This document shows, piece by piece, positions 3,474 to 22,400 of a DNA stretch of 64,000 nt. Numbering within the stretch: position 1 is the first letter of the stretch; every line of letters starts with the position of its first letter. Under the pieces are notes generated by a model. That model was given only the letters and a program-made list of their open reading frames with translations, did no database searches and was not told the DNA's origin. A program made the position numbers and the translations under genes. Origin of the DNA: Labyrinthula sp. Ha (Eukaryota > Sar > Bigyra > Labyrinthulida > Labyrinthulaceae); the NCBI GenBank assembly GCA_015227615.1, contig JAALGZ010000044.1, positions 124,001-188,000 on the forward strand, written 5' to 3'.

Positions 3474-4580
3474 TTAACCTTGGTTTAAATATCTCCTTCG
3501 TCTCCAAACTCCTTTGCATCTTTTTTTTAGTGTTTTAAGATTAGAAGGATTTACAACTATTGTTTGAAATATGCGTATTTTAGATGATATCATAGCAAAA
3601 GGTAATAATATTGCTACTAAAGGTTTTTGACAAATATTCTGAGCGATATTTAAATTATTTCCTATGCCATTATCTTTTGATAACAAATCTATGAATAATT
3701 TAGCAATTGGATCTGCTTTTCCAGCAAGTTGAATTGACAAATTAGGTATTCTAAGAGTGGTAGAATTAAATATCTTATAAAGTATAGAAGTAACTAATCG
3801 AATAGAAGAATCAGTGAATAAATGAAATTGTAGAGAAAGGTAACTAAAAATATATAAAGTTGGACTTAAACTCTTGGAAAATGCTAAAGAGTCGTTTGAA
3901 AGTTTCCAGGTTAATTTTTGATTAAGAACAACATCTTCCTTCGACCTTGTACATAGTAAAAGTGGCTTGTTTAATTTTTTTGATTTTGGAGATCGGGAAA
4001 ATATTTTATCTATATTTGTAAAATAAAATATAATATTATTAGCAAGTTTTCTCTTTTTCTCTTTTTCTAACTTAATTAGAATATTAAGAACCGGAGCATT
4101 TAAATATTTTGTTCCACATTTAATAAGTTGATTTCCATAAAAAGTAATATTTAAATCACTAGATTTAGGAAATAAAAAAAATATATTTGATAGAAGAATT
4201 TCAAATTCGAGTTGTGATTCAAACACGCATGAATCAAAACTTAGTGAAACTTTTACATTTTCTCCAAATTGTTTCAAGAAATTAAGCAACAGTTTAGAAA
4301 GAAAAGGGAAATAAACTAAATGACAAGCTATGCTAATATAATGTTTAAAAGAAAAATTCTTAATCCTTGGAAGAGATTGAAGTCCTGGAAGATCTTCCAT
4401 AATGTTTTCTTTTTCAAGGAGTTCATTATTTTTCTCGTGAAATGAAAGTGAAACTCCACCAAATTGTTCACTCACAGCTTTATTCAATAATTCGTTTCCT
4501 CCCATCAAATTTAAAGTATATTCAGCTTCACTAATCATCCAAGCATGTTTTCCTTCAATGTAAAATCTGTTTTCTTTCAT
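3474..4580 (-). CDS. Unrecognised protein, copy A of a two-member local family
   Basis: A 368-residue soluble-looking protein that I do not recognise. The start is set at the ATG at 4580 because the paralogue at 5488-6546 begins with the same MKE-x-F-Y pattern; a longer frame upstream uses only GTG. The two copies share an N-terminal block (LMGGN...LLNK...FGGVSLS at about residues 25-45), a middle block around SFDSCVFES, a block with QLI and an AP-[VL]-L step, and a C-terminal block with FHLF...SIR...FNSTTL and a LIDLLS motif. Regularly spaced leucines and isoleucines resemble a degenerate leucine-rich-repeat or F-box/LRR fold, but this is inference. No signal peptide or membrane segment is convincing. 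It is intronless and ends in TAA. The two copies flank the dehydrogenase relic and face the same way, so they probably arose by duplication of this locus. Confidence 0.8.
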   Translation of the reverse strand: MKENRFYIEGKHAWMISEAEYTLNLMGGNELLNKAVSEQFGGVSLSFHEKNNELLEKENIMEDLPGLQSLPRIKNFSFKHYISIACHLVYFPFLSKLLLNFLKQFGENVKVSLSFDSCVFESQLEFEILLSNIFFLFPKSSDLNITFYGNQLIKCGTKYLNAPVLNILIKLEKEKKRKLANNIIFYFTNIDKIFSRSPKSKKLNKPLLLCTRSKEDVVLNQKLTWKLSNDSLAFSKSLSPTLYIFSYLSLQFHLFTDSSIRLVTSILYKIFNSTTLRIPNLSIQLAGKADPIAKLFIDLLSKDNGIGNNLNIAQNICQKPLVAILLPFAMISSKIRIFQTIVVNPSNLKTLKKRCKGVWRRRRYLNQG

Positions 4581-4715
4581 GTTTTTCACTACTTTGTACA
4601 CACAATGACGTTTTGTTTGTTTTAATATGTGACATTTAATAATATAGTTATGTTTTAACTAGGCAATTTATTTAAATTCAACAGAAAATTAAGTATTTAT
4701 AGCTAATTTATGTAT
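4581..4715. other. Intergenic stretch where the dehydrogenase 5' half should be
   Basis: Very AT-rich DNA between the start of the minus-strand family gene and the first recognisable dehydrogenase codons. I looked for a TGxxxGIG nucleotide-binding loop in all plus-strand frames and found none, so the dehydrogenase N-terminal half is absent here. Confidence 0.5.
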
Positions 4716-5487: not shown

Positions 5488-6546
5488 TTATTTAACCATA
5501 TTTTTTATTTTTTTGTAGTTTTCTGGAATAATTTTTTCTTCATGAAAAGAACAAAGTTTTTCAGATTTACAAACAAATGGAAACAAAGTTCTAAGAAAAT
5601 GTTTTGAAAGTGGTGCAGTATCAATAATATTCAGTTTATTTTCAAGAACTCCTTTTCTTGAAACCAAATCTATCAAAAGTTTTTCAACTGGATTTGCTGA
5701 TCCAAAAACTTCAAGTACTAAATTTTCTATTGTCAAAGAAGTTGAGTTAAATAGTTTATCTAAAACTGAAGATACTGATCTAATAGATAAAGATTTAAAT
5801 AAGTGAAAAACTAAAGTTAGATTTTTCATATAAAGAAAAGAATTATTTAAACCTTTTGCAAGAATAATTGATTCTTTTGATATTCTTAACTTTATATTTT
5901 GTTCAAAAGGAATATTTATGCTTGATTCCTTTATTAAACAAAGTACATCATTATTTTTTTTCAACTTAAAAGAACTAGGGAAAAAAATTTTTGGATCTGA
6001 AAAATAAAAATTAAATTCATCCAAAAGTTTTGTATTTAAATACCAAATAGTTTTTAAAAGTGGAGCACTATAAAAATAATTTTTGTTTTGAATAAGTTGA
6101 TAATCTACAAAGAAAACACTAATTTCAGAATATTTTGAGCGAATTGAATATATTTCTTCAAATAAATGCTTGAAATCTACTTCAGAATCAAAAACACAAC
6201 TTTCAAAATTCAAATAAATCTTAGCAGAGTTTTGAATAGTTTCCAAAAAAGTCAAAACTGTATTTGAAAAAAATAGAAAAGGTGTCAAACAAAAATCAAG
6301 TTGTAACCTTTTTATGTTTGTTCTTTTTACTGAGAAATACTTTCTTACTTCATCTGCGTTTTCTTTAATATATTCTTGAGAAAGTTTATTCTTATCAAAG
6401 CAGTGTTTTGATAATAAAACACCACCAAATTTTTTTTGAACAACTTTATTCAAGAAAGAATTTCCTCCCATAAAATTTATTCTATATTCTGATACATCAT
6501 TTGCAGAAAAAGAATCTTTTTTCATATAAAAATTTGTTTCTTTCAT
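5488..6546 (-). CDS. Unrecognised protein, copy B of a two-member local family
   Basis: A 352-residue protein, paralogous along its whole length to the 3474-4580 gene. Both start with MKE and contain the MGGN...LNK...FGGV block near the N-terminus, a [FN]-x-SCVF-[DE]-S step in the middle, and FHLF..LSIR..SVLDKLFNSTSLTI followed by a LLIDLVSRKG block near the C-terminus. Conservation is scattered over hydrophobic positions, typical of old paralogues under purifying selection rather than of a fresh duplicate. I see no catalytic motif, signal peptide or membrane segment; an LRR-like or F-box-associated fold is possible but unproven. It is intronless. Its stop lies 22 bp beyond the end of the convergent dehydrogenase relic, and its start is about 90 bp from the end of the reductase-like gene. 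Confidence 0.8.
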   Translation of the reverse strand: MKETNFYMKKDSFSANDVSEYRINFMGGNSFLNKVVQKKFGGVLLSKHCFDKNKLSQEYIKENADEVRKYFSVKRTNIKRLQLDFCLTPFLFFSNTVLTFLETIQNSAKIYLNFESCVFDSEVDFKHLFEEIYSIRSKYSEISVFFVDYQLIQNKNYFYSAPLLKTIWYLNTKLLDEFNFYFSDPKIFFPSSFKLKKNNDVLCLIKESSINIPFEQNIKLRISKESIILAKGLNNSFLYMKNLTLVFHLFKSLSIRSVSSVLDKLFNSTSLTIENLVLEVFGSANPVEKLLIDLVSRKGVLENKLNIIDTAPLSKHFLRTLFPFVCKSEKLCSFHEEKIIPENYKKIKNMVK

Positions 6547-6632
6547 ATCTCCTGAAACGATATAACTTCTGAATAATTTGTGTAATTTAAGGATTAAGTA
6601 AACATTTTTTTATGTAAGAAATTAAATATCAC

Positions 6633-7499
6633 TTATAATTTAAATACTTGTTTTTTAGTAAAACCTTTTTCACCTAAAATTCCTTTTAATTCTGTTGAAA
6701 ATAGTTTTCTAAAAGCAGAAATTCCACCAACTGTATTAACAAAAGAACGAGTTCCAACTAAAAATAAAACACCATCATTTTTATCCACTTCATATTTTTT
6801 TAAGTGTTCTAAAAGTTCTTTATCCAAAGAAGTTGAACTAAATCTACCCTTTTCAAACTCTAAATTATTTTTTCCAGTTGGTTTTGAAAGTATAAAATGA
6901 ATATGAAATTGATCTGGATATTTTTCTTTTAAATTGTTTAACTCTTCTAAACATAAAATATCTTCTTCATTTCTATTTTGATATATCAAAAATATTTTTG
7001 TTTTATCGGCCTCATCGGAAAAAACAAATTTAATCAACTGCAACAAAGGCGCTAACCCACTTCCACAACAAACTAAACATAAATATTTCCATCTATTTAA
7101 AAAATATCTTTTCCCTTCAAATAATTTTGCTGGTTTCATTAAAATATCAATTTTAGTTCCTTCTTTTGCATTACATAAAAAAGTTCCCATACAATTTTTC
7201 TATTCTGGATATGATTTTATCATAAACTCAACTTTTTCTGTATTTGGTAAGATTACTGGATCATAAGCACGTATTTTTTTCATTTCTGAACTATAAATCA
7301 TTGCACATGAAGGAATTCCTTTATTCAAAAACAGGTTCTTTTGTTCTGTAGGTATTTTGCAAGTTATTTTATGGACATTGTGAGTGAGTTGTTCATTAGA
7401 CTGAATTTCAAAAGGATATAAACGAAGTACATCGGAAAGTGTTGTTCCATCAATACCAATATGACTTGAATTACTAAAGGCTGAACCTATAGATTGCAT
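6633..7499 (-). pseudogene. NADH-cytochrome b5 reductase-like gene with an in-frame stop
   Basis: The N-terminal half has the FAD-domain pattern of cytochrome b5 reductases: PFEI at the start, an HNVHKITCKIP strand, RAYDPV in place of the usual RxYTPv, then an IKSYPE strand. The C-terminal half has a C-G-S-G-L-A-P nucleotide loop (usually GGTGITP), an LLQLI helix, an IYQNRNEEDIL strand (usually anQTEkDIL) and a terminal KKQVFKL resembling the usual cVF-F end. The two halves are in the same frame but separated by a TAG at 7200-7202, where the family usually has a glycine. The terminal CGPP motif is replaced by VGTRS. I place the start at the ATG at 7499; just upstream is a TTCTTCCAG-like intron acceptor. 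An LTR element begins about 25 bp upstream and has cut off whatever preceded it. Probably a dying gene; programmed readthrough is less likely. Confidence 0.65.
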
Positions 7500-7524
7500 G
7501 ATTCTAGCCACTGGAAGAAAATGT

Positions 7525-7729
7525 TGTCTTTATCTCGCGTCGCGGTGACTTTGGATTTAGAGATGTGAAAAGTCCTTCTTGTTAGATTGTGTGTTAACGG
7601 TTAAGTGATACGATATGTCAAACGATAACTATTACAGCGTTACCTTAGATTTATAACAAATACTATAGTACAAGTAGACTCTCCACAGTTTCCGGGCATA
7701 GGAACAGTAACCCAAAACTGGGAGAGAGA
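7525..7729 (-). repeat. 3' LTR of the gypsy element
   Basis: Direct repeat of 19227-19431. On the plus strand it starts TGTCTTTATCTCGCGTCGCG and ends CTGGGAGAGAGA. It matches the other LTR at 197 of 205 positions without gaps. At about 205 bp it is short for a Ty3/gypsy LTR. Next to it on the internal side is a short guanine-rich run on the element's sense strand (7730-7738), which is where a polypurine tract is expected. Confidence 0.92.
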
Positions 7730-7757: not shown

Positions 7758-8940
7758 TTAGAAATAGTTCACGTGAAAGGATGGTGTAAGATCTAATCCC
7801 GTTGATGTCCAGTTGCATCGCACATTGTTAGTACGTGCAAAAAACTCAATTTTGTTATGCTGAGGAAAACTTCGGTCCAACAGAGAATAGAACACTTCTG
7901 TTTTCATCGAAGGCTTCTCAGGCTGAGCCCAAATTAAGTTGGAATGTTCTTTAGCGAATATCTCGAAGAAGGTGTCAGAGTAAGTTAATTTTTCGTTTTC
8001 TTTTCTTATAAATACGAGGCAGATTTCCTTGCTATGTTGCAGGATATAGCCAAGACTTTTGTGTAACTTGCCAGAATTATTTCTTTTAATCCATGTGATG
8101 CTGTCGGTCAAATAATATTTAAGAGAGTTTGCCCACTTCAATACGGTAAAATAGGAGTAGTTAGTTACCCAAATAAATAGAAGTGAACCATAGGGAAAGT
8201 TGGTTAAGGGTAAAGTAATTTTTGAGAATTTTTCCAGAGAGAGAGTTGGATAATCCAGAGTAACCCCCCCTAGCGGGATTCGAGACGCCGACCTTCCATG
8301 GCGGGTCCATCACGGCGAGGGTGTATATATCCAAACTTCTTCTGGGATGCGAATAAGTCATGCTGAATATATTTTCCAAAATAACTCTAGAATGAGCAGG
8401 TCTGAAATAAATTTTTAAAGTTGTTCCAGCGATCTGGAATAAGTTTCCATCCTGATAGTTTAAAATAACCTTGGAGACTTTATCGAGGTCCAATAATGTG
8501 ATAACTACATCTTCATCTTGAAGCTCCATCGAGACCGAAAACTGGCCTTCAGAGACAGAATATTGTGAACTAGAAGTAGTAAATAGGCTTGCACTTCCCT
8601 CAGAACCTCTAACTGTGCACCAGTAGCTGCTAAGAGTCGTCCAAAAATCATCATTGATGCTAATAATTGAATAAAAAGTGTCCAAAGATTCTTTATTGTG
8701 AATATAAATTTCTTTCAATTGTGAAGTATGATCTGATAACTTCTTCTTAAGAATAGAAATATTGAGACTATATTTCTTAATAAAGCCCTGAGCACCTTCT
8801 AAATCGACTTCAGAAAGTAAAAGCTTTATGTGTCGTAAATCGTTAATTCTTCTAAAATAAGGAATGAAAAGATCTTCGTAATTCTTTTTGCATAAAATAT
8901 TCTTGAACTGCTTTAAAAAGGCATCTTTTTCTGAGAACAT
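7758..8940 (-). pseudogene. MT-A70-type N6-adenine methyltransferase region, cargo of the LTR element
   Basis: This region lies between the integrase and the 3' LTR, on the same strand as the element's other genes. About 200 residues without a recognised domain precede a DPPW catalytic motif (codons at 8296-8307) that follows a short hydrophobic strand, as in METTL3/METTL14/METTL4/MTA1 proteins. Further on are a W-I-K-R-N-N-S-G strand, an H-S-K-E-I-C-L-V-F-I-R segment that fits the family's H-x-K-E-H-C-L-x-G-x-K-G, a KPS...EVFYSLLDR helix that fits HKPDEIYxMIER, then KIEFFAR and NWTSTGLDL, which fit KIELFxR and xWxxxGNxL. MT-A70 enzymes methylate adenine N6 in RNA or DNA using S-adenosylmethionine. 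The region is broken in this copy. Which substrate its ancestor used cannot be read from the sequence. I am confident of the family, less so of the subfamily. Confidence 0.82.
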
Positions 8941-9000
8941 ATTTGTTCTTCCTGGTAAGTTTTTATGGAATTAATTGATTCCAAGTTCCGTGCGTAAATA

Positions 9001-11290
9001 TTACCGAGCCTCGAATAAATCAAACTTTAAATTGTGGAATATGCTGATGGCCTGGAGGTTCAAAATGCTCTGGATCTGCGTAGTAACTTGTTGCTTGGTT
9101 CGGTATGGTAAATGAAAGTTCATGTTGTATTTGTCGTAATTTCCACAGCCAAACTTTTTTACAAGGCAACATAAAATGTTTTTCTCCTCATCAAACCAAC
9201 CCAGTGTATTTCTTGTTTCGTTTAAGTTAAAATTCGTAGTCGCTTTAAAGTTCGAAAGGTTTGCTCTTCTAATGTTTGTATTCCCCCTCTGAGAAGTAGC
9301 ATCCAACTGTTGTAAATGGGATAATAATGCATCTTTCCTATATTTGTTCTTGATTTTATTTACAAAATCCCGTACGAGTAGGGGAACATCGCGGTAGATT
9401 GTATCCAGCGGTTTCCATGTGTCGCTTTCAGCTGAAAACCCCAGCGAAGACACACGAACCCTATATTCCACTGAAGGGGAAGAAAATAATTGAATCTTCT
9501 TTATCCTGTTGATCTCTAAACTTTGAAAATTGTGAACGAATAGAGCCTTAAGGTTTTTGTTGCCAAGAGGTTTTTCGTCTGAGTAAAACCATAATCGTGA
9601 AGCATGGACAACTCTTATTTTCCCCAGGAGGCTTTCTACTTCATAGACATCTTTACTAATAATGTTGGTGATCTGGTAAGGGCCGATCCAGTTAAGGCGT
9701 ATCTTTTCCTTTGCATTAAGGGTACCATACTCAGAAACGAGTACATAATCACCCTGCGAAAATTGGAATATAACTTTCCTCTTCTTATTTAGACGACTAT
9801 TTTCCATATCTCTCTTAAACTTTACTTCAGTATAAACTTCACCCTGAACGGACTCAATAATACCCATAATTTCGTCAACCTGGTCGATAAGAATAGAAGC
9901 ATCCAATGGTTCTTTGACGTTGTTGGCTAATGCAATTGAAAAATGTTTAGGAGATTGTTGGAGAAGAGGTGTAGCAAGTTTGTAATATAGAAACAGCTCG
10001 TTGGGAGACTTATTTAGCCTTTGATCAGATGGTTTGTTAGTTATAATATATGAAATAGTAGTAAGTAGTTTGGGCCATTCAGACTCATGGAGCCCATATT
10101 TGGAGGTTAAGCTTTTTATGCAGCGTAGAATAGCTGAGTTCAAAACTTCAACCGAGCCATTCGTCCACGGTGAGTATGCCACGGAGGATGCCTGCTCGAA
10201 CCCAATATTCTTTGTTAGTGCCTTGAGTAAATGATTTGAAAAATGTGAACCATTATCAGTTATCACCAAGAAATAATCGTTGAATCCGAGGTCAGAACGC
10301 CACTGCATTAAGGTGTCGGCCATAGCCTTAGCTGTTGCAGCTTCTGCGTAAAATAACATCAGCTTCCTGGTACATGAATCCATAAGGACTAATATGTAAC
10401 CAGTCTTGTTTACATAAAGATACTCCGCACTAAGGATCTCGCGCGATCTCCTGGCGAGATGTTTGAGATTATATGGGCGACGTAGAGTATGGGGCTCCCT
10501 CTGACAGTGTAAACATCTTTGTCGAAACGACTTCAATAGCTCAAGCAATTCACTTTTGAGGATCCCGTGGAAATAAACGTTAGAGATTGATTTCTTTTCC
10601 GCTGTCAAGGATGGGTGGCACTTGTCCATGTGGTTCTTTACTAGGAAATGGCCAAGTAGACTCCTCGGAATAACAAGCTTCTTCTGAAAATGAAATAAGC
10701 CATCCATCTCAGTGCACTCAGCTATAAAATCTTCAGGTAAGTCTCTCTGCTTCTTACTGATTGTCTCTGCAGAAACCTCGACTTTCTTGTTTCTTGGATA
10801 AAATGGGGATAAGTAGGAGATGTGTTCGGAGAATAAGTACTCCTTAATCTCCGAATAATTCGTTGAAATAAAAATAGGCCTCGGCTGGAAGTCATTACTA
10901 GCTTCCAGATTGACCGTCCTGCGTATTCTGTTAATCAATGTCCTTTCATATTCTAAATATTGAGAGTGCTCTGAAGACTCCACCTCAGAGACTCCCGATG
11001 AAAATATGTCTTCGCACGGTTCACCCTCTTCACTTCGACCTGGAGAGCTTTGGAATTCAAATTTTAGATCTTCTTCTGCGGAAAATTGATCATCCTCCAG
11101 CTTGAAGTCCATAGAGCAACATGCTATCCTGTTACTGCTTTCTTCTTCTTCCTTAGCCCAGCGGGTTAGCAAATCGGAAACGAAATTATCTCTTGAGCTT
11201 ATGTGAAATATTACTAGATCCTCCGATTGGAGGCGAATAATCCAGCGGTATAACCGATCCCAATAGATGCGCTTGTTGTTTTCTTTGACC
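9001..11290 (-). CDS. Integrase with chromodomain-like C-terminus (LTR element)
   Basis: A single long reading frame of the LTR element. Its first residues are the end of the RNase H domain (a DNFVSDLLTRW block that fits the family's GxxNxxADaLSR). Then come an acidic linker, an H2C2 zinc-binding segment (H..H about 30 residues before CLHC), a DDE integrase core with VITDNGSHF and NGSVEVLN, and a GPYQI...VYEVES barrel segment of the kind that follows gypsy integrase cores. A chromodomain-like stretch is last (YRVRVSSLG...DTWKPLD...LVRDF, about residues 580-630 of the 723-codon ATG-started part). Chromodomains on integrases steer insertion into particular chromatin. The frame ends about 60 bp before the methyltransferase region on the same strand. 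Part of an element that is otherwise broken. Confidence 0.85.
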
Positions 11291-11302: not shown

Positions 11303-11345
11303 AAAGCTTTTGGGAAACGGAAAATTTGGAAACAAAGAAACCGTT

Positions 11346-14300
11346 ATGAGTTCCGGCAGCACTCAGGCAGTCGAAAGACAGTCACCAGTCAATGAAGCGC
11401 AAGATTCCAGAGCAATTTCAATTGTCTCTGTGAATGTTGACCGTCTCACCTCCTACAAGCTCAGGTCTATCGAGGAATATGCCCTAACTGTCGATACAAA
11501 CGTCCTTGCAATACAGGAAGTTGGTAGTAAAGGAGCGGAATACCTCGAAAGAGCGAGCTTCTCAAGACTAAACTGGTTTACAACAGATATCTCTAAGAAC
11601 AAAGACACAGAAAAAAACAAAATCAATATTTTAGCAACATACTTCAACAGGAAGATGGACAAAGAAGCAGAAAAAGTGTTTGATGAGGATAGAATTTTAG
11701 GTGTTAAAACTAAACTTAACTCTAAAAGCTATTATATAATCAATATCTATGCACCACACGCAGGGAAAACAGCGAAAGAATATAACCAGTTCCTAGCAAG
11801 ACTCCAGAAAGCGATCTCACTGAAAAGGAAAAAAGACCTCATGATAATCCTAGGCGACTGGAACGCTCAAATACGGCACAACGAAGTGACAAGCAATGGA
11901 AACTACGGATACACGACAAGAACGAACATGAACGGCAAAATACTTCGGGACTTTTTGAACAAGTACAATCTGGCCATCGTCAACTCATACTTCGCTACTG
12001 GTGCAAAGAATACAAATAGTCACGTAACATACTATTCAAAACATAAGAATAATCAGAAACGCTCAGAAATAGATTTCATCATAGCGTGTAAAGGCAGCAC
12101 CCCACTATTCCGAAAAATTCGGATAAAAAGAAAACTAGGAGAGAAAATCCACAATAGAACAAAGTTTGATCATCAACCAGTTGAAGCACTAGTCTCACAA
12201 AAGTTCAGGAAATACTCCAACCAAAACCAAAAAATGCATCGAAACTACAAAGAGTTCTTCAAAATTGACGCAAACCGCTGGAAACTAAACGAAGAAATAC
12301 GACAAGGCTTCGAAGAAGAAATAGCCAAACTCCCACCATCCAACAACTCTGGAAAACAATCAAGACTAAACTTCCAAACGTTCAAGTCAACAGTAAAACA
12401 AGCCATTGAAAACTGTATCCCACTGGTGGCACATGAGCGACTCTACAGAACATCTTCAGATAGAACAGAGACTTTATTTGAAATAAGAAGAAGGCTATGG
12501 AAATCTCTAACTGAAAATGAATATAAAATACTAAAAAAGATGATAAGAAGAAGTACCTTGAATGACTACAAAGCCTGACTGGACCTTCAAGTAAGAAGAA
12601 TAGATACAGCTATGGCAAAGAATGATATCCATGAAGCTTTCAAACAAGCGGAAAGGATAGTAGGGGAAAAGCGGAAACCTCAACGCACCATTACCATGGA
12701 AAATGGAAAGTAACTAAACGATAAAAAACGAGTAAAAGTATTCCAAGAATACCTTGAACTCGCTCAAAGGAACAGAGAAGGAAACATCATGGACAACGAA
12801 CTGGATATTCTTGAAGCCAAAGCTGAAGATACAAATATATCTCCTCCGACTTTAGAAGAACTTGAAGAGACGGCGAAAACACTAAAGAACTATAAAGTAC
12901 CCGGACCTGATGGAATCAAAAACAAAATCCTAAAGAATAATAAAATAGTATTGAAATACCTACAGCAACTTGCAGAAGAACTATTTTTAGATCCAAGTGG
13001 CCTGAACAAAGATGAGCTTATATCTCTCTCTACTGGAAACATCATCTTCCTATACAAAAAAGGAAGCCATCAACTTACTTCCAACTATAGGCCAATACCC
13101 TTGCTTAACACTTCCTACAAACTAATCACTAAAATAATAAACAATAGACTAAAGAATATCCTGGAAAGAACAGTAGGAAACTACCAGTCTGGACTTAGAG
13201 AGAATACGGGAACTAGACAAGAAATCCAACTCCTCTTGAACCGCTGTAAACTCAGCCAAATGGAGAACTCGAAGATACTATGTCTCTTTATAGATTTCAA
13301 AAAAGCTTTCGACTCTTATAAACATCCTTTCCTTGAGCTTAGCTTAAAAGAGAGAAAAGTTCCTGCTAACTTTATCAATATAATCCTTTACCTATATAAA
13401 TATGCTGCAGTCCAAGTAAAGATAGGAAAACATATAAGCGACAGAGTGAATCACCTTGTAGCACGCCTTTGTTTATTTCTACTAAGTCCCACGTTATTTG
13501 TACTTGCTCTGGACTCTCTGCTTCGAAGGATAATAAATAAAATAAACTTGAACTTTCCAGAAGCAGAATTCTCCTTTCAAAACATTCTTGGATTTGCCGA
13601 CGACCTTTGTATCTTGAGCAGAGATAGCAACATCTTGAAACACTTCATTCAATATACAGAAGAGCTCTCACAACTGTCTAGCCTAAAGATAAATACACAG
13701 AAAACTCAACTCATGGGAATAGTCAGGAGAAGGAAGCTCAAAGATAAGCTTTCAGACACTGCAATTCAACAACTGGTCAATAAACACACCTGCACCTCTT
13801 GTTCCAGAAACTTCTCCTCAAAAGATGCCCTTGTAGGACATAAAGCACGGTGTCTTGGACCGGGAACTGCGTTAGTTCGAAGTAGAAAGGGCACTAGAGC
13901 AGTCGCTGCAGCTGAACTAAACTTCCTCTACAGCAACATCCCAATAGAAGAAAACCTGGAAACCAACCTTGGAACCATCAAAGGAGTAAAAACCTTTAGA
14001 TACCTTAGAGTGGATATAACAGCAACAGCTGAAACCCACGTTAATCCATTCGGTAGAATACGCGCTGCACATGAAACTCTTCGCAAACTCCAACCGATAC
14101 TGAGGAATAATATGCTGACTGTCAAAAGGAAAAAGGACATTGTGAAAGCACTTGTGGTCTCAAAAATCCAATATGGCAGCGAGTTCTGGAACCTGGAAAA
14201 CAAAGATACATCCAAAGCCTTGAACAAACTCTCTAGAGATATAAAACGCACCCTCCTCCAACCTAATCCAACGCAGCCACTTGAACACACGAAACAGGCC

Positions 14301-14594
14301 AATACCCTCAAAGCCGGTGATATAAACATCCTAAAAATATTAAAGGAGAAACAAAAAAGCTGGCTGGAAACATGCACAACGGCAGAAATAGATATGGAAC
14401 TGGCGGAATCCTCAAGGAAGCTTGAAACATATCTTTTTCCACAAACTGCTACTCCAACTGAAGACTTGAACGTACCACTGGAGCATATAAGAGAAGAACT
14501 AGAACACCATGAACCACGCCCTCCCCTTCACCCACCACCACCCGGGGAGAACATGCTAACCCCACCACAAATGACACCAAAAACAACACCTTAG
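11346..14594 (+). pseudogene. LINE endonuclease-reverse transcriptase polyprotein, two in-frame stops
   Basis: From the ATG at 11346 the frame runs about 1,082 codons. The endonuclease/exonuclease/phosphatase domain covers roughly 11420-12200: an N-V-D-R start, AIQEV, INIYAPH, LGDWNAQ, SEIDFIIA and a final FDHQPV. The reverse transcriptase covers about 12890-13730: VPGPDGIK, NIIFLYKKG, YRPIPLLN, the FIDFKKAFD block and the FADD catalytic box at 13592-13603. A C-x2-C-x12-H-x3-C finger follows at about 13791-13853, then a conserved C-terminal segment with KIQYGSEFWNL. Two stops interrupt the frame without shifting it: TGA at 12576-12578 and TAA at 12711-12713, both in the linker between the domains, so this copy is inactive but only lightly damaged. 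The C-terminus is proline-rich. The sense strand is A-rich. Confidence 0.88.
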
Positions 14595-15134
14595 CTTATC
14601 ACTCGATAAAATTCCCATGTGCATTTAAGGTAACTTCGACCCTCGGTTGCTTCTTGGATGGATAACTGGAGAAAGCTCAACTGGATCTCTTCATAAACCA
14701 CGATTATCTTGTAAAACAGAACGATACGCGACAATAGAAGTAAAAAACTGGTGCAGGACATCTCGATATGATAAATAAAAGAACTTGAAATATTTTTTTT
14801 GATATCAGGAACACTGGATATGACGCACGACAATATCTCAATCTCTTTCATGATTTCTTGCGTGATTTGCTGATTTCGATTTGGATTATTCGTAAATTTT
14901 GGTAAATCACTATTTTGGGAGATCAAATGCGATAAGTGAGTACAACGGGAAAACTATCGTGATCGTGCCAATAGTGTCTCGAAGTCCCACAAACCAGTTT
15001 AGTTCAGTGACAGTAGGAGCACGAAACGGGAAGCTTCCCTAGTGAGCGGCGAACCGGCATCGGACCCTAAGATAAAGGCATAGGCGGATTTGCAGATGTA
15101 GTACCTTACTCCCACCTTAACTATTAACTATTAA
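14595..15134 (+). other. LINE 3' region with hairpin and tandem tail
   Basis: About 540 bp after the LINE stop codon. A perfect palindrome GGGAAGCTTCCC lies at 15028-15039, followed by a GC-rich stretch (AGCGGCGAACCGGC) and the TTAACTA tandem tail at 15117-15134. Structured 3' ends with short tandem tails are typical of LINEs whose reverse transcriptase recognises the RNA's 3' end. An antisense reading frame of 111 codons at 14591-14926 shows no known motif and is probably chance. Confidence 0.6.
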
Positions 15135-15146
15135 CTAACAACAGTA
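15135..15146. repeat. LINE target-site duplication, right copy
   Basis: CTAACAACAGTA, identical to 11291-11302. It lies inside RNase H coding sequence of the LTR element. Confidence 0.88.
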
Positions 15147-15511
15147 GGAAGCGCTTTGTGATCGGTATATACATAGATTCCCCTGATGTGGGTCCTGAGA
15201 AGGAAGCCAATTCTTTCAAAAGAGTAGATGAGCGGATAAAGCTCCTTAGAACTTATATGCCACCTTACTTCACTAGGAGCAAATCCACCACTTAAAAATA
15301 TCAAGGGTCGGGGTCGCAACGTGCGGACGTCATTTGTAACGTTGCCCGGAGAATCTTGAAATACAGCGATGGACCAAGTGTCCTGCGAGCTGTCAGTGAA
15401 GAGCAAAAGTGGCTCTTCATGATTGTAGGTAGAAAGAAAGTGTTTGCTGGCTGAGACAATATCTTCTAATAACTTCTTGTAAGCATCAAGCAACTCATCT
15501 GTCCAGATCAC
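15147..15511 (-). pseudogene. RNase H region of the LTR element, interrupted by the LINE
   Basis: The 5' part of the RNase H domain: LLLFTDSSQD (the family's L.TDAS.yG strand), a RPLIFLSGGF strand, the SSKELYPLIYSFERI helix carrying the catalytic Glu, and IYVYTDHKAL. The rest of the domain lies beyond the LINE, at the start of the integrase reading frame near 11290. The split is caused by the LINE. Confidence 0.8.
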
Positions 15512-15586
15512 AGGCTTCTTTAACTTCTCTATCTCCGAAAGTTTCTTGCCTTTGAGGTTGGCATAATGTTGAAAAGGCTTCCTAAG

Positions 15587-16542
15587 CTAAGCGAGCTTAG
15601 GAATATTAGGTGAGATCCAGTTCGCCAAATATACTAGTTGGGCCATTTGATGGGGGTATTCTGGTCTCTTCATATTTAGAATCTTATCGTAAAAGGCGGG
15701 ATCGAAGTTCCACCTGCCTTGTCGTATCTCCCACCCATACCAAACGGTGGTTGGGGAGCATATTCCGCACTTTCTGATGTTGAACCGGACCCTCTTCCTT
15801 GCAGCTTGCTTTAAAAGTTTTTCAAATATGATCAGAAGTTGTTCAAAAGACTGTGAATAAACTAGAAGGTCGTCTAACCACGCGATGACGCCATTTGATT
15901 GGGCTCCAAATAAGTCGTCGACACCATCCGCGTTGATAATTTCACTGATTACGCGCTCAAAAAATAGAGCTCGAGTGTTGAACCACCCGACAGGGGCGCC
16001 CTTCATTCTCCAAGCGGAGCGCCTTGTAACCAAAGTAAATATATCCCGATCCTTTTCGGCTGTTGGCAAAAAGTCAAAGCCACTAAGGATGTTGAGCGTT
16101 AAATAAAAAGAATTGTTCGTAATAGAAAGGAACTGCCTTTCGAGGTTAGGCAAATTGAGCGAGGTTGGAACTGTGATCTTATTTAACCGGATCATGTTCG
16201 CAACCATGCGGTACCGGTTTAAGATGTTCTCCCGTTTCCACTCTACCCTTTCCTCATTTGATAACTCTGTCCAGTTTGATGGGTTGGCCAACTTCTTTCG
16301 ACCACGAAATCAGGATGTCCCCAAGTGGGGTTAGTTGACCTCTCAAATATTCCTGCAGTTTCTAACGCTTTGAACTTTAAATCTAGAAAGTTTTCTTCAT
16401 CAACTGTAAGGTGGTATCCATCAGACCTCAAGATACTGTAACCTTGTTTCAAAGAAACTTCTATCGGAGAAAGGAGGCTCATTTGAGCGTTCGATTGCTT
16501 AATACCCCAGCTGTTAATATTTAGATTCATGAGATCACCCAT
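15587..16542 (-). pseudogene. Reverse transcriptase region of the LTR element
   Basis: It matches Ty3/gypsy reverse transcriptases. An upstream segment with GHPDFV lies just before the palm. Then come LPNLERQFLSI, an ILSGFDF step where the family has lDLxSGYxQ, a GAPVGWFNTRALFFERVI thumb-proximal block, the AWLDDLLVYSQSFEQLL catalytic box (W-L-D-D variant of YxDD) and an RVRFNIRKCGI...YGWEI primer-grip segment. The W-x-DD variant occurs in some protist gypsy elements. This part of the element is broken. Confidence 0.82.
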
Positions 16543-17318: not shown

Positions 17319-17666
17319 CTATTTGTCCATGTGAACAGTTTTTTGGGCGTCTTTAATGTTGAGTTTCACCCCGAAATATCTAAGTGTGCGATCGCCTATG
17401 ATCATCTCGTCCCATAGTTCGGAATCCACACAGAAAAAGCGCTGTTCTTTTAAGTCAAGTTTCCATCCATCTTGGACCAAAACAACGTGTGCAATTACCA
17501 CCGCCTTTACTGGGATATGCTTCTTGTCCATAAAAGTAACATTTTTTATGAATTGTGGTTTTTCCTCCCTGGTCTTGTATGCCTGCATCGAGCTAAGTCC
17601 AGCAACGTTAAGGTTTGCTCCTGTATCTGCAAGACCCTTAACTTGCATAAAATCACCAGACTCCAC
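17319..17666 (-). pseudogene. Retropepsin-like aspartic protease region of the LTR element
   Basis: A GLADTGANLNVAGL catalytic loop (the DTGA box) near the N-terminus and an E-M-I-I-G-D-R-T-L flap/strand segment followed by a hydrophobic C-terminal strand, as in gypsy retropepsins. It cleaves the polyprotein in a live element. It is embedded in the broken half of this one. Confidence 0.75.
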
Positions 17667-17881
17667 GTTTTCAACAGAAGGGATATGCTCCTCGCTTTGT
17701 CACCAACTCTTTTGACTCGAATCGAAATCAGAGAAGTAGAACCAGATATGGTTGACTGCTTAATAGAATCTCCGTCATCAATCCTTCTTATTCTCTGCTT
17801 CTGTTTCCTGACCTCAACTGCATTTCTATCCTCTAACTTCGAGTTTCTTCTTTCCATCACAAATCTTCTTGCTAGTAGAAT

Positions 17882-19202
17882 CTACTTTAGCTTAGATAAA
17901 GAATAGCCTTTAGAAACCAGTTCAAATTGTTGATATTCAATTCCGAAAGCATAAGGGGTTTGATTTATAACACTCCGCAATATTTTCTTCTTATGCGTCT
18001 TAAGTTCTTCTTTGTCCAGATGTTTTAATATTTTAGAAACTTGGTCGAAGAACAAGTAGATTTGTTCTGCAGGAATCAAATTTGCTGACGGCCATTTTAA
18101 ATTCTTTTCCAATATACCTAAGCATCTTAATCGCTTTGCTTTTTCAAAGTTGATGAGGTGTCTCGTGAGATAGTTAAGAATAGCTTCCGAGGAAGCTATG
18201 TTGACTCCTCTTTGTTCCAGAGAGTCAGATACATCCTTCGTTATTAAAGATTGAATAGAAAGGGACGGCATATTTCTAACTGTGTTGCGATAGTCGTGCA
18301 AGAAATTCTCTATCTTGTCTCTAGTCAGTTGTCTCAATTTTTCCGGAAGTTGAACTTGAACGAAAGGTAAACCGTATGTAACTGGTGCTTGAGGAAGTGT
18401 TTGATATCCAGGATCGCCAGATAGTGCTTTATATTTATCTTTTTTCCAAAAATGTGCTACCGGTTTCTGACCACTTATCGTATAGTGACATGGCACGATG
18501 TGAAATTTTACTGGCATTTTCCCCTATACTTATTACATCGCATGTTTCTTCTTATATCTGCTTATCACGCGACGAACGCACTTCTTCATTTGAACCAGTA
18601 GGAATATCATGTAGTTCACTTTCCTCTTTACGCCTCTTTCGCTCCTCCATTTCGTCAATATCTTGTCTCAGGTTATCCTCTAGCGTGCTGAGTTCCATTT
18701 CTTTCGCCACCAGCTTATCGTGCCAGCTCCGAAGGTTCTCAAGCTGCTTCAGGTTGTGATCTTGAGCTGCTTGCTGCTTAGGAAGAAGAAGTTCCGAGCC
18801 CTTTTCTCTGATGTCGAGCTCAGCTTCCTTTTGTGCCAGCTTCTCCTTATCTAGCTCTAACCGCTGCTGGTTTGCGATTTCCTTTTCCCTGAGACGAGAT
18901 TCGTAGTCCTCCAAAGCGGCCTTTTAATTTTCAAGACGTCTATTCTCCCTACGGATCCTATTTAGCTCATCCAAAGCAGAGAAAGGAAGAACACTAGCGG
19001 ACCTGCTGCGTGTATCCGCTCGTTTTGGAGTCTGAGATGGTGTAGTAAATTCAGTAGTAGGATTGGGGGTGTCCGGGTTATTCGATTGAGTGGAAGAAGC
19101 TTCGTCCCCAGCGCCTGTACCAGGTTCTTCCTGTTCCGGTGACGTGGTCGATTCCACTTCTTTGTTCTTACTCTGCACATTCTCCGAATCACTCTGATTC
19201 AT
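17882..19202 (-). pseudogene. gag-like region of the LTR element
   Basis: It starts about 25 bp inside the 5' LTR. The first part is acidic and Ser/Thr/Pro-rich, followed by a long Glu/Lys/Leu coiled-coil stretch (about 18560-18914), then a helical capsid-like segment of about 200 residues (17882-18517) with no CCHC knuckle that I can see. The assignment rests on position more than on motif. More than one break is present. Confidence 0.6.
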
Positions 19203-19226
19203 TATCTTCTGACGTAATTCGAACTA

Positions 19227-19431
19227 TGTCTCTATCTCGCGTCGCGGTGACTTTGGATTTAGAGATTTGAAAAGTCCCTCTTGTTAGATTGTGTTTTAAC
19301 GGTTAAGTGATACGATATGTCAAACGATAACTATTACAACGTTACCTTAGATTTATAACAAATACTAAAGTACAAGTAGACTCTCCACAGTTTCCGGGAA
19401 TAGGAACAGTAACCCTAAACTGGGAGAGAGA
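19227..19431 (-). repeat. 5' LTR of the gypsy element
   Basis: Direct repeat of 7525-7729, same length, 8 differences in 205 positions. On the internal side the sequence next to it does not begin with the common TGG primer-binding triplet, so the priming mode is not evident. Confidence 0.92.
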
Positions 19432-22400
19432 ATGTTCAAGCACCATTCTATTTTAGTTTCTCCGAGATTCTGCTTATTAGCTATGTCTCTTCCAGTAACA
19501 TATTTTGGTAAAATTCTTATTTTGTGTCATCTGGTATAACCAAAGTTTTTGGGAGAAAGAGAAAATGATGCTTTAACTATACTACTAGGTTAATATTTAA
19601 CATTGAATAAAAATTTAGCAAAAAAAAACTTTTCGATTATTGCCGTTTTTTATGAGTGATTACAAGCTAGGTTAAATACCTTAATGAGAAGGAATGCTAC
19701 AGCGAACTTTCTTGACAACGAAACAGACCACCATCTATAACCTAAACGCTGTTTGCAGTAGCTCTATCGTTTAATATTATATTTATAGCTGTATTAATTA
19801 GTGTTTATATTAAGTTATAACTTTTCTACTTACCTGCGAACTACAAACTGGTGAGGACTCGCAAATTGAAACTATATGTTCACCATTATAAGATGTAGCG
19901 GACAGTTCCCCATAAAGTGTGTGAAATAAGTTAAATTTGCGTTTATTTTAAAAAGTTTAGTTAGAAAAAACCAAATGGATTGTTTTATTCTTTTTCTCTT
20001 TTCTGCCACAAAAGCACTTTCCCAGAACCTAGGAGACTGGAGCATGTCGTTCAAACATTAGGTATTAGTAATAGCAAGACCGGGTATTACTTAATTCATG
20101 AATTATATACATTAGCTTTGGACTTTCAGCTACATTTCATCTTATATACTGATAAATCAGAAGAAAGTACAATTCGAAGGATCTTCTTACAATTTTGTCT
20201 CTAAGTTTCTATGAAAATTCGAAAAGGTAGACTGTCTAGGAAACTAGTCATATAGGTAGATACGAAAACTAACTTGTTGTGGAAAAATGTGAATTTGAAA
20301 ACTAATTTTTTAAAAGCTATTCCTTAGTCTTTCAGCGCGAGTAAGCAAAATATATTTACCTCAATAATTACAAAAAACAAAATTTTCTCAATCTAGGTTA
20401 AGTATAACACTTAAATAAATGAAAAGATTATTAATTACATTAGGTAACTTTGAGTAGAATTACAAGCTCATCTAGAGATTCAATTTGCATTCTTAGGGTT
20501 TCGGATGTAGCGAGTTTCTGATTGAGCTGAAAATACTAAAAAAAATTCATCCAAGAGCTTGAGCTGATGGTTTATTATGAACCACTGCAGAAAATACTCT
20601 CCTCTTAATTCGGTACTTAATACATTGTTTAAGTTTTCACTATAACTAAGAACGTGTAAAATCCATGCATTGCTCAAGATTCTTATTCTTGAGCTGTGAT
20701 TGGGATCCTAAATTACATTGTCACAAGTCCCGTACTAAAAAGAGGCTATCAAATATCACTAAAAGATAATTTGGTTAAAATGTATAATATTTCTCGCACA
20801 AGACAGATTTTTACAGGGTAAAGGAAGAGTCTGATGTATACTTATTTCATACTAAAATGCGGCTTATATTCAGGTTTCTTTTATTTGACAAGCAGTTTTA
20901 ACTTGTTAACAAACATTTCAATAATATTCCATTTTCGTATCTTTAAGTGAAAAATAAACATAAATTACTGGGCTTTCCTGTAGTGGTCTATATAATTTTT
21001 CAGGTCACAAATTATTATGAAATTATTTTAGTAAAATCTTATTAAAATCCTGGGTTCTTACCTTTACCCACTTCTCCATTTTAGCTAACCATACAAATTA
21101 AAGACTTCATGTTTATTAATATATCCTTGGTTAGACAGAGAGAACATAATACCCTCTATACTTATTATCTTATATAATCAGCAGTTTTTAGGAAAATATA
21201 ATATTGGGATATTAGAAGAGTTAGTCCTAGGGGAAATATTTCTTTTAATGCCCATAGATTATAAGGTCGTACAATATGTAGATTATGAATGTATTTACTA
21301 CAATAGCTCTTAACGACCTGATTTACCATCGAATTTAAACTTTTAAAGCATGTGAAACTTCTATAGATGTACAAAGGGTGAGTCATAATCATCATCTGCA
21401 TAGTTAGCTAGAGTGAAAATATTATACACAACATTGTCTACCACCAATTATATTTTGTAAAAATGCTGTACACATACGAAAAGATTGCGAATATAAGAGT
21501 ATAGTTATTAAGTAATATTTGGTGGATTCAACATATGTTGAAGCCCAAAATATTTCACTTTAGGCTAGGTTTTCATCGATTCCTTGGAAAAGCTTGAGAT
21601 TTGCCAAGACAGAACATCCTCTCAAATTTAGTGCATAAATCAAGGCTAAGAACTCCATAGCAATAAAGACTTACAGAGTGTTTGATCTTAAAAAATGAAT
21701 TGGAATTCTTGTTTCAAATAGCAATAATTCTATACTGATCCTATTATGCCAGATCTCTTTTCTATGCACAAGTGATCGTATTTGCTGTATTGATAAGAAA
21801 ATTAAAAAGTACATATTAAATAATTATTAATAAATTTTTTGTTAACCCGTGCCTGAAAGGGTTAACTTAAATGCAATAACTAGAAAATAAGAAAGTCGAG
21901 CCATGGTTTGGTAACATTATTTTCTGCTTAAGGCGGTAGTTTGCGTACAAGTTATTATTAGCTAGTTGAGAAGCAACAGCTGTGATATTAGTCAAGATGT
22001 TTTATCTCAAGCACCATTAAGTCATAAATGTCTGCGTGTCATAACTCAGGAAGTGAATCTCTTTAAACTTCACTAGTGTCCTATTCTGGACTTAATTGTA
22101 CCGGTGCTGTCTCATGCTAGAGGAGATTTGAGCATACTAGCTCAAAAATTTTAAGATTAAATAATTATCATTTAGATTTTAAATCTGCTCTGATTATTGG
22201 TTTTCTTTTCTTTCATTATTTATGATTCTTCTTTCTACAGTTTGTTTAAATGAACCGACGAAAAAAAACCAAAATAAACTTAATATTCCGAATCCAAATA
22301 ATACTACCTATCCAGCCCTAACTAGCGGCACTAAATCTGATTTTGGACAGGAGAGCTCTTCATTGACAATTGGCATCTGGGTCATGAAAACATTAATTAT

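Follow-up and report, generated by a model that had tools for sequence, protein, structure and literature searches.

The window (the whole stretch of 64,000 nucleotides analysed, G000:C93:124001-188000, from a genome of 50.8 Mb in 153 contigs) harbors a Ty3/gypsy retrotransposon on the reverse strand, which is bounded by paired LTRs and a target-site duplication and contains an MT-A70 domain next to its 3' LTR (Table 1). This domain matched the Pfam MT-A70 family (PF05063) at E=9.3e-17 and 61.9 bits, against a curated cut-off of 23.9, and its best relative in the PDB was Tetrahymena MTA1 (E=1.7e-23). The profile search thus bears out the initial annotation, which had placed an MT-A70 enzyme on the element's own strand inside the LTR pair. 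Upstream of this domain, the DTGA motif is presumably that of an aspartic protease, and the reverse transcriptase (RT)/RNase H call likewise leans on motifs that we assume to be diagnostic; the DNA of the latter region is collinear with the element's relatives (L030-L034), and its part at 15137-15259 was matched by the Pol protein of one of them (L033). The integrase region also gave a p58_C match (2.7e-4) under the curated cut-off.

Table 1. Features of the Ty3/gypsy copy in the window.
Feature	Position	Strand	Basis and remarks
5' LTR of the Ty3/gypsy element	19227-19431	-	205 bp; 96.1% identity to 7525-7729
3' LTR	7525-7729	-	205 bp; pair of 19227-19431
ATGT target-site duplication	7521-7524, partner 19432-19435		both outer LTR flanks
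Putative gag region	17549-19223	-	several broken frames; ORF fragments; gag assigned from position
Aspartic protease remnant	17322-17699	-	DTGA motif
RT/RNase H, broken	15137-16309	-	ORF fragments; assigned by position
LINE (endonuclease, RT and C2H2 finger), interrupting the Ty3 element	~11307-15134	+	
Integrase core (rve)	10168-10428	-	Pfam E=3.2e-5, under curated cut-off
Chromodomain (approximate limits from model)	9292-9522	-	fold only
Myb-like domain, p1-related	9001-9210	-	profile of 13 element copies; fold rank 5
Linker and N-terminal MT-A70 part	8161-8970	-	DPPW at 8296-8307
MT-A70 domain, frame-shifted C-terminal part	7758-8309	-	PF05063; MTA1 match; fold

Pfam gave no chromodomain match in the window. 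A structural model of 9001-9570, which covers the chromodomain and the p1-like segment (mean pLDDT 68), retrieved solved chromodomains at the top of the PDB list and AMTP1 (9o6k_C) at rank 5 (E=0.02), with no PDB fold match below E 0.001. The p1-like piece of the window taken alone had no Pfam Myb match, a spurious Wntless hit (E=0.011) being the only one. The copy had been described as a fossil, and its frames agree: the DPPW motif lies in a different frame from the remaining MT-A70 domain, one frame break was located at ~8179-8276 (tblastn, with the open relative L033 as query), and stops break the frame between 8970 and 9003. The element is also split by the LINE, whose ORFs (11304-12578 and 12714-14594) matched Exo_endo_phos_2 and RVT_1, together with a weak zf-C2H2_6 match below the cut-off; the LINE is absent from the Ty3 relatives, two of which (L030 and L032) overlap by 17-18 bp at the insertion joint. 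The window copy is a decayed member of an old and successful chromodomain Ty3/gypsy clade. As for its neighbours, the copy lies upstream of an NAD-binding reductase-like gene (6633-7529, minus strand; PF00175, E=1.3e-14), ~22 bp from the gene's first ATG; the codon at 7200-7202 of this gene is a TAG in frame. Beyond it, two long intronless frames on the minus strand (3474-4658 and 5488-6609) seem, on visual comparison, to be paralogous; the former has a weak Ku_N match (E=0.0076).

A DNA search with the window copy retrieved five almost complete relatives (L030-L034; 81-90% identity), all of which span the MT-A70 region. Neither of the outcomes named in the initial annotation as refuting it, a missing PF05063 match or other copies devoid of the domain, was thus obtained; in L033 a single frame of 1218 residues runs from the integrase through MT-A70. 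Genome-wide, the best 150 of 354 candidates from a PF05063 search were scored, and 53 of these lie in open frames of at least 1000 residues. Merging this list with two protein searches that used divergent copies (108 and 141 matches) yielded at least 257 MT-A70 places, a figure that is not a number of elements, as it takes in decayed copies, the host AMT1, matches as weak as E=9e-4 and perhaps duplicated contigs. Among the matches listed, 200 of the 257 have a p1-like, chromodomain or RNase H place upstream. Conversely, MT-A70 follows on the coding strand, at most 5 kb downstream, after 121 of 150 RT_RNaseH places (best 150 of 379; upstream of 2), within 2.6 kb downstream of 109 of 148 chromodomain places (275 candidates, best 150 scored; upstream of none), and 0.3-2.2 kb downstream of 110 of 150 p1-like places (best 150 of 317; upstream of 1). 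On the opposite strand none was found within 5 kb of RT_RNaseH, 2.6 kb of chromodomain or 2.2 kb of p1-like places, among the matches listed; with the PF05063 list alone and a reach of 8 kb, the RT_RNaseH count was 71/150 downstream with one opposite-strand neighbour. The merged list left 29 of the 150 RNase H places without MT-A70 among the matches listed. At least three of these are at a contig end and six have a p1-like place downstream, and in others the domain may score below the matches listed.

Twenty loci were fetched because their MT-A70 place sat in a long frame, and every one of them has one open frame of 1686-2358 residues with MT-A70 at its end. In these open copies the domain thus closes Pol, in frame, at its C-terminus, and is not a gene in an env-like position as had been proposed. 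In nine Pol proteins scanned with Pfam, the order is RVT_1, RT_RNaseH, rve, Chromo and, last, MT-A70. PF05063 was above its cut-off in all nine (E 1.3e-36 to 3.5e-17), Chromo was present at E<=0.01 in eight (L023 excepted; seven exceed the cut-off), and rve was above its curated cut-off in L015, L020 and L023. Together with the chromodomain fold in the window, these matches support the earlier claim that a chromodomain integrase belongs to the same element. Paired LTRs could be made out at 10 of the 22 loci inspected, all of them among the 20 long-frame loci; the LTRs are 94-100% identical and enclose the MT-A70 end in every case, and 4-bp flanking duplications are readable in three (ACTT, CATA and CTAG). 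LTRs, the order RT, RNase H, integrase, and a chromodomain are the features of the chromodomain branch of Ty3/gypsy. Given at least 257 places, 20 open Pol frames that end in the domain, and ten copies flanked by an LTR pair, it is confirmed at the family level, the level at which the initial annotation had made its claim, that MT-A70 is carried by chromodomain-integrase Ty3/gypsy elements.

Not every Ty3 element in this genome carries the domain. The locus L040 (C81) represents a second Ty3-like group, the one whose RNase H matches score highest; RNase H and integrase pieces were identified in it by reading, and MT-A70 is absent in the 3.8 kb fetched downstream. Another locus picked as a suspected negative (L039) carries a divergent MT-A70. 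Outside this assembly, two word-based protein searches, which reach fairly close relatives, returned 8 and 1 matches with eukprot MAKER-type names, taken to be from the same genome, and IMG/VR yielded no relatives; a further protein search covered the best 120 of 654 matches, with length limits that excluded polyproteins.

Phylogenetic analysis revealed the same main groups in the RT-RNase H tree (21 rows) and the MT-A70 tree (20 rows), namely {L015, L017, L018, L021, L024, L027}, {L020, L026}, {L009-L014, L016} and {L019, L022, L025 with L023}. The trees differ in the position of L028, which is weakly supported, and in a shift of L024 inside its own group. Pairwise RT and MT-A70 distances among 21 copies correlate at r=0.919, a value helped by near-copies among the rows (L011, L012 and L014) and reached by none of 2000 label shuffles (best 0.443). 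Since the two histories agree, the domain appears to have travelled with RT since before the deeply split lineages parted. Of 18 pairs compared, eight are saturated at synonymous sites and the other ten have dN/dS values of 0.05-0.47; three pairs of window-copy relatives gave 0.05-0.06 at dS >1, which is rough and near saturation, and L032 versus L034 gave 0.47. The pair L011 and L012 gave 0.07 for MT-A70 and 0.05 for RT, with saturation in all six remaining RT pairs. These values show purifying selection.

The element domains resemble AMT1 (MTA1), the DNA 6mA enzyme of eukaryotes, more than METTL3. Tetrahymena MTA1 was the best PDB chain for all four query domains (L016, L022, L015 and the window), followed by METTL3 and, where listed, METTL14; 7cv6, which we take to be METTL4, was the weakest MT-A70 protein in three of the lists and absent from the fourth. 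When Tetrahymena and host AMT1 are counted together, AMT1 outscores METTL3 and METTL14 in 30 of 30 element domains, so that among the four proteins compared in sequence (AMT1, METTL3, METTL14 and METTL4) AMT1 is the closest; for L011, L012 and L014, METTL3 scores above Tetrahymena AMT1 but below host AMT1. A P-S/T-R-G loop after DPPW is common to AMT1 and the elements (P219 in 29/29, G222 in 29/29 and R221 in 27/29), whereas METTL3 is without S-R-G in the loop behind DPPW. Residues D209, S332, R357 and N360 of MTA1 catalyse the reaction or contact SAM, according to excerpts of PMC9852454. In a count of 29 rows, several of them near-copies and with the truncated L030 left out, D209 and R357 are kept in all, N360 in 28, W212 in 25, S332 in 24 and N370 in 4. 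The catalytic motif in these 29 relatives is DPPW in 18, DPPY in 3, DPAW in 7 and DLPF in 1. The DPAW copies (L002, L003, L005, L006, L007, L013 and L016, of which L013 and L016 have long open frames) form a subfamily that is possibly a partner-type or altered enzyme. A model of the MT-A70 domain (mean pLDDT 69) retrieved MTA1 in the first 12 rows of a Foldseek search (from 4.4e-10), with METTL3 after it (2e-8), and VIA-align left METTL3 and MTA1 tied.

In a 50-row tree that contains long branches, the AMT1 clade (93/94) excludes the elements, whose own placement is weak (63/91); no branch of this tree sets all the elements on one side, as happens in 4% of bootstrap trees. The element MT-A70 is thus best described as AMT1-like by sequence, a term that implies no place inside the AMT1 clade. 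The host has a frame of the AMT1 type (L008, P0010; 327 residues, 57% identical to Tetrahymena MTA1), which is probably its own AMT1. The nearest named matches of this frame among those listed are from Mucochytrium and Hondaea (65% over 62-63% of the query), a similarity suggestive of a host akin to labyrinthulomycete stramenopiles, and its position in the tree is weakly supported (81/33). A recent copy of the present host AMT1 is not supported as the source of the element domain, given that 16 element domains are 22-34% identical to it and that the AMT1 clade of the tree does not take in the elements.

Between the chromodomain and MT-A70, the elements carry a further segment with the pattern W...E..L.....FG.G.....LPGK.KQ, aligned in 13 copies. 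This alignment was drawn from 16 segments (14 loci, the window and L039) with L017, L027 and L033 omitted, and a strict form of the motif occurs at 16 of the 20 long-frame loci. Against a PDB set, the 13-copy profile had p1 of the MTA1 complex (7f4l_E) as its best match (E=5.5e-21; 66 of 68 columns, 2-67), followed by other Myb proteins from 4.5e-13, mostly over the Myb core, and by p2 at 2.1e-4. The L011 segment as a single sequence matched p1 over ~120 residues (E=8.3e-18), with no ordinary Myb protein listed in that PDB search; the match stops at p1 residue 141, and the MTA1-binding HTH motif occupies p1 residues 152-183. Pfam Myb_DNA-binding was found in 8 of the 13 aligned members. The segment has both parts by which p1 is recognised, a Myb/homeobox-like domain and the extension that follows it. 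Because the MT-A70 domain is accompanied by this p1-like Myb domain, the module is closer in make-up to the AMT1 complex, which writes 6mA on DNA, than to a writer of m6A on RNA; the initial annotation had allowed for either nucleic acid. Of the subunits of that complex, p1-like and MTA1-like parts are the ones visible in the element, and MTA9 and p2 were not seen in it. The two best matches to Tetrahymena p1, neither of which has an MT-A70 nearby, are L041 and G000:C100:135982-136305; L041, a stand-alone frame of 384 residues, is probably the host's own p1 by similarity.

The papers cited here are represented by excerpts of their text. Like the ciliate MTA1 complex, the element combines an MT-A70 domain that has the AMT1-type loop with a p1-type Myb domain and its extension. 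MTA1 has no nucleic-acid-binding domain of its own, DNA binding coming from p1 and p2, and MTA9 steadies the complex (PMC9852454, PMC9174199); MTA1 acts as the hub that binds MTA9, p1 and p2 (PMC9174199). The 6mA made by AMT1 is located at ApT close to where active genes start, p1 and p2 are found only together with AMT1, and transposable elements show no enrichment in the AMT1-encoding species studied (PMC12695648). The element differs from this complex in joining two subunits within one retrotransposon Pol polyprotein behind a chromodomain integrase, in having domains outside the AMT1 clade, and in the unseen MTA9 and p2. Retrotransposon lineages with a captured DNA methyltransferase are known from SymbioLINE-Dnmt, SymbioDIRS-Dnmt3 and KnitGypsy-Dnmt3, a gypsy-type DNMT element being reported under purifying selection (PMC5890265). 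The enzymes of those elements are, however, C5-cytosine methyltransferases unrelated to MT-A70, and no C5 cytosine methyltransferase domain was matched by Pfam at E<=0.01 in our nine Pol proteins. The same excerpts mention Dam-like adenine enzymes in DIRS, and the term MT-A70 is absent from them.

An orchid Ty3/gypsy group also carries an adenine-methylation enzyme as an extra domain, an m6A RNA demethylase, but this is an eraser instead of a writer, acts on RNA, is encoded as a separate 2-ODD ORF and belongs to one recent family (PMC9289625, in the excerpts). The nine Pol proteins scanned gave no Pfam match to a 2-ODD (AlkB-like) domain at E<=0.01. In bdelloids, N4CMT likewise joins a chromodomain to an amino-methyltransferase, reading histones and writing on DNA; as described in the excerpts, it differs in being a host gene of bacterial origin whose 4mC is laid on transposons by the host (PMC8885841). 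Among the open-access literature, as represented by the excerpts, no paper was seen to describe MT-A70 in a retrotransposon, nor any LTR element that carries this domain or two parts of the AMT1 complex. The elements belong to a known kind, the retroelement with a captured methyltransferase, and are unusual in the enzyme, in holding two subunits of one complex, in age and in spread within the genome. Chromoviruses have the order RT, RNase H, integrase, chromodomain, together with LTRs and short target duplications. The present elements share all of these, whereas their Pol extends ~480-630 residues past the chromodomain into the p1-like and MT-A70 parts and, in 7 of the 20 loci, has a protease motif between these two parts.

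Pol ends in relatives of a DNA-binding and a catalytic subunit of the cellular DNA adenine-methylation machinery, which suggests a possible marking of element DNA by the elements themselves. The Pol order, the enclosing LTRs, the common history of RT and MT-A70, the largely kept catalytic and SAM-contact residues and the purifying selection are seen directly in the copies; the activity, substrate and purpose of the module are what we infer. We favor, with a probability of roughly 60%, an element-encoded DNA 6mA writer that acts on the element's own copies. Pol comprises, in order, a protease (of varying position), RT, RNase H, integrase, chromodomain, p1-like Myb and AMT1-like MT-A70 parts. 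The p1-like part would bind DNA, and the MT-A70 part would methylate N6 of adenine, probably at ApT, in the element's own cDNA or fresh insertion, while the chromodomain and integrase would keep the module at the insertion site. As a mark of transcriptionally permissive chromatin, AMT1-type 6mA would give a new copy the appearance of an active gene and let it escape silencing. The missing MTA9/AMT7 and p2 may be supplied by the host, which appears to have its own AMT1 and p1, or may not be needed. The missing partners, the DPAW and DLPF copies, the weak place in the tree and the VIA-align tie limit this reading. A fuller scenario, to which we give a little less than even odds, is that the clade took up two subunits of the DNA 6mA machinery long ago and fused them to Pol as a reader-binder-writer that marks its own cDNA and insertions as 'active gene', serving the parasite and not the host, with partners unneeded or borrowed from the host. 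If active, the module would combine naturally in one chain a writer that is otherwise assembled from four proteins, and 6mA would be used by a genome parasite; the role of 6mA in eukaryotic chromatin could then be tested within a single genome, by setting copies whose domain is whole against those in which it is broken.

A self-marking DNA writer has to be weighed against roles in which catalysis on DNA is not the point. The module might tether Pol, or the pre-integration complex, to promoters that are rich in 6mA and bound by the AMT1 complex, by pairing with host AMT7 or p2, its catalysis being secondary or lost. The DPAW and DLPF copies keep open Pol frames, a chromodomain is a known targeting part and is present in the same Pol, and the window copy sits just upstream of the reductase-like gene (one case); MTA1 is, moreover, a hub for MTA9, p1 and p2 (PMC9174199, excerpts). 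Such docking seems unlikely, however, since the catalytic D, R and N are kept in 28-29 of 29 domains, beyond what docking needs, and DPPW or DPPY in 21 of 29. The same conserved catalytic set counts against a module that displaces or titrates the host AMT1 complex in order to counter silencing, without methylation of its own. The presence of host AMT1 and p1 genes (L008 and L041, by similarity) and the many element copies fit that idea, which we consider very improbable.

The preferred DNA writer also competes with an RNA m6A writer that would act on the genomic RNA in the manner of METTL3-METTL14 and affect its splicing, stability, packaging or sensing. The MT-A70 family includes RNA enzymes, VIA-align does not separate METTL3 from MTA1, and METTL3 outscores Tetrahymena AMT1 in three copies; yet AMT1 is ahead of METTL3 in all 30 domains when host and Tetrahymena AMT1 are both counted, the loop is of the AMT1 type, and the domain is fused to a p1-like DNA-binding domain. 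METTL3 has a CCCH finger, whereas Pfam found none in the nine Pol proteins. Even with the orchid Ty3 eraser as a sign that RNA m6A can matter to such elements (PMC9289625, excerpts), we judge an RNA substrate quite improbable. That a host gene was inserted into or fused with a dead copy in a single event, or that the assembly is at fault, has practically no probability left: the broken window copy alone could be read in this way, but the genome-wide counts of at least 257 places, the 20 open Pol frames ending in MT-A70, the flanking LTRs and the congruent RT tree rule it out.

The 20 long-frame loci also vary in the layout of their protease. The motif DSGA, which we take to be that of an aspartic protease, stands between the p1-like and MT-A70 parts in seven loci (L009-L014 and L016) and before RT in five (L015, L018, L021, L024 and L027), with no DSGA in the other eight; in the former seven, the protease seems to have been relocated behind the integrase. 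In addition, gag and pol lie in the same frame with one stop codon between them in six loci (L016, L019, L020, L022, L023 and L028), the stop being TAG in five and TGA in one and followed by G. Since TAG ends the host AMT1 and p1 frames, this joint resembles the stop-codon readthrough of some retroviruses.
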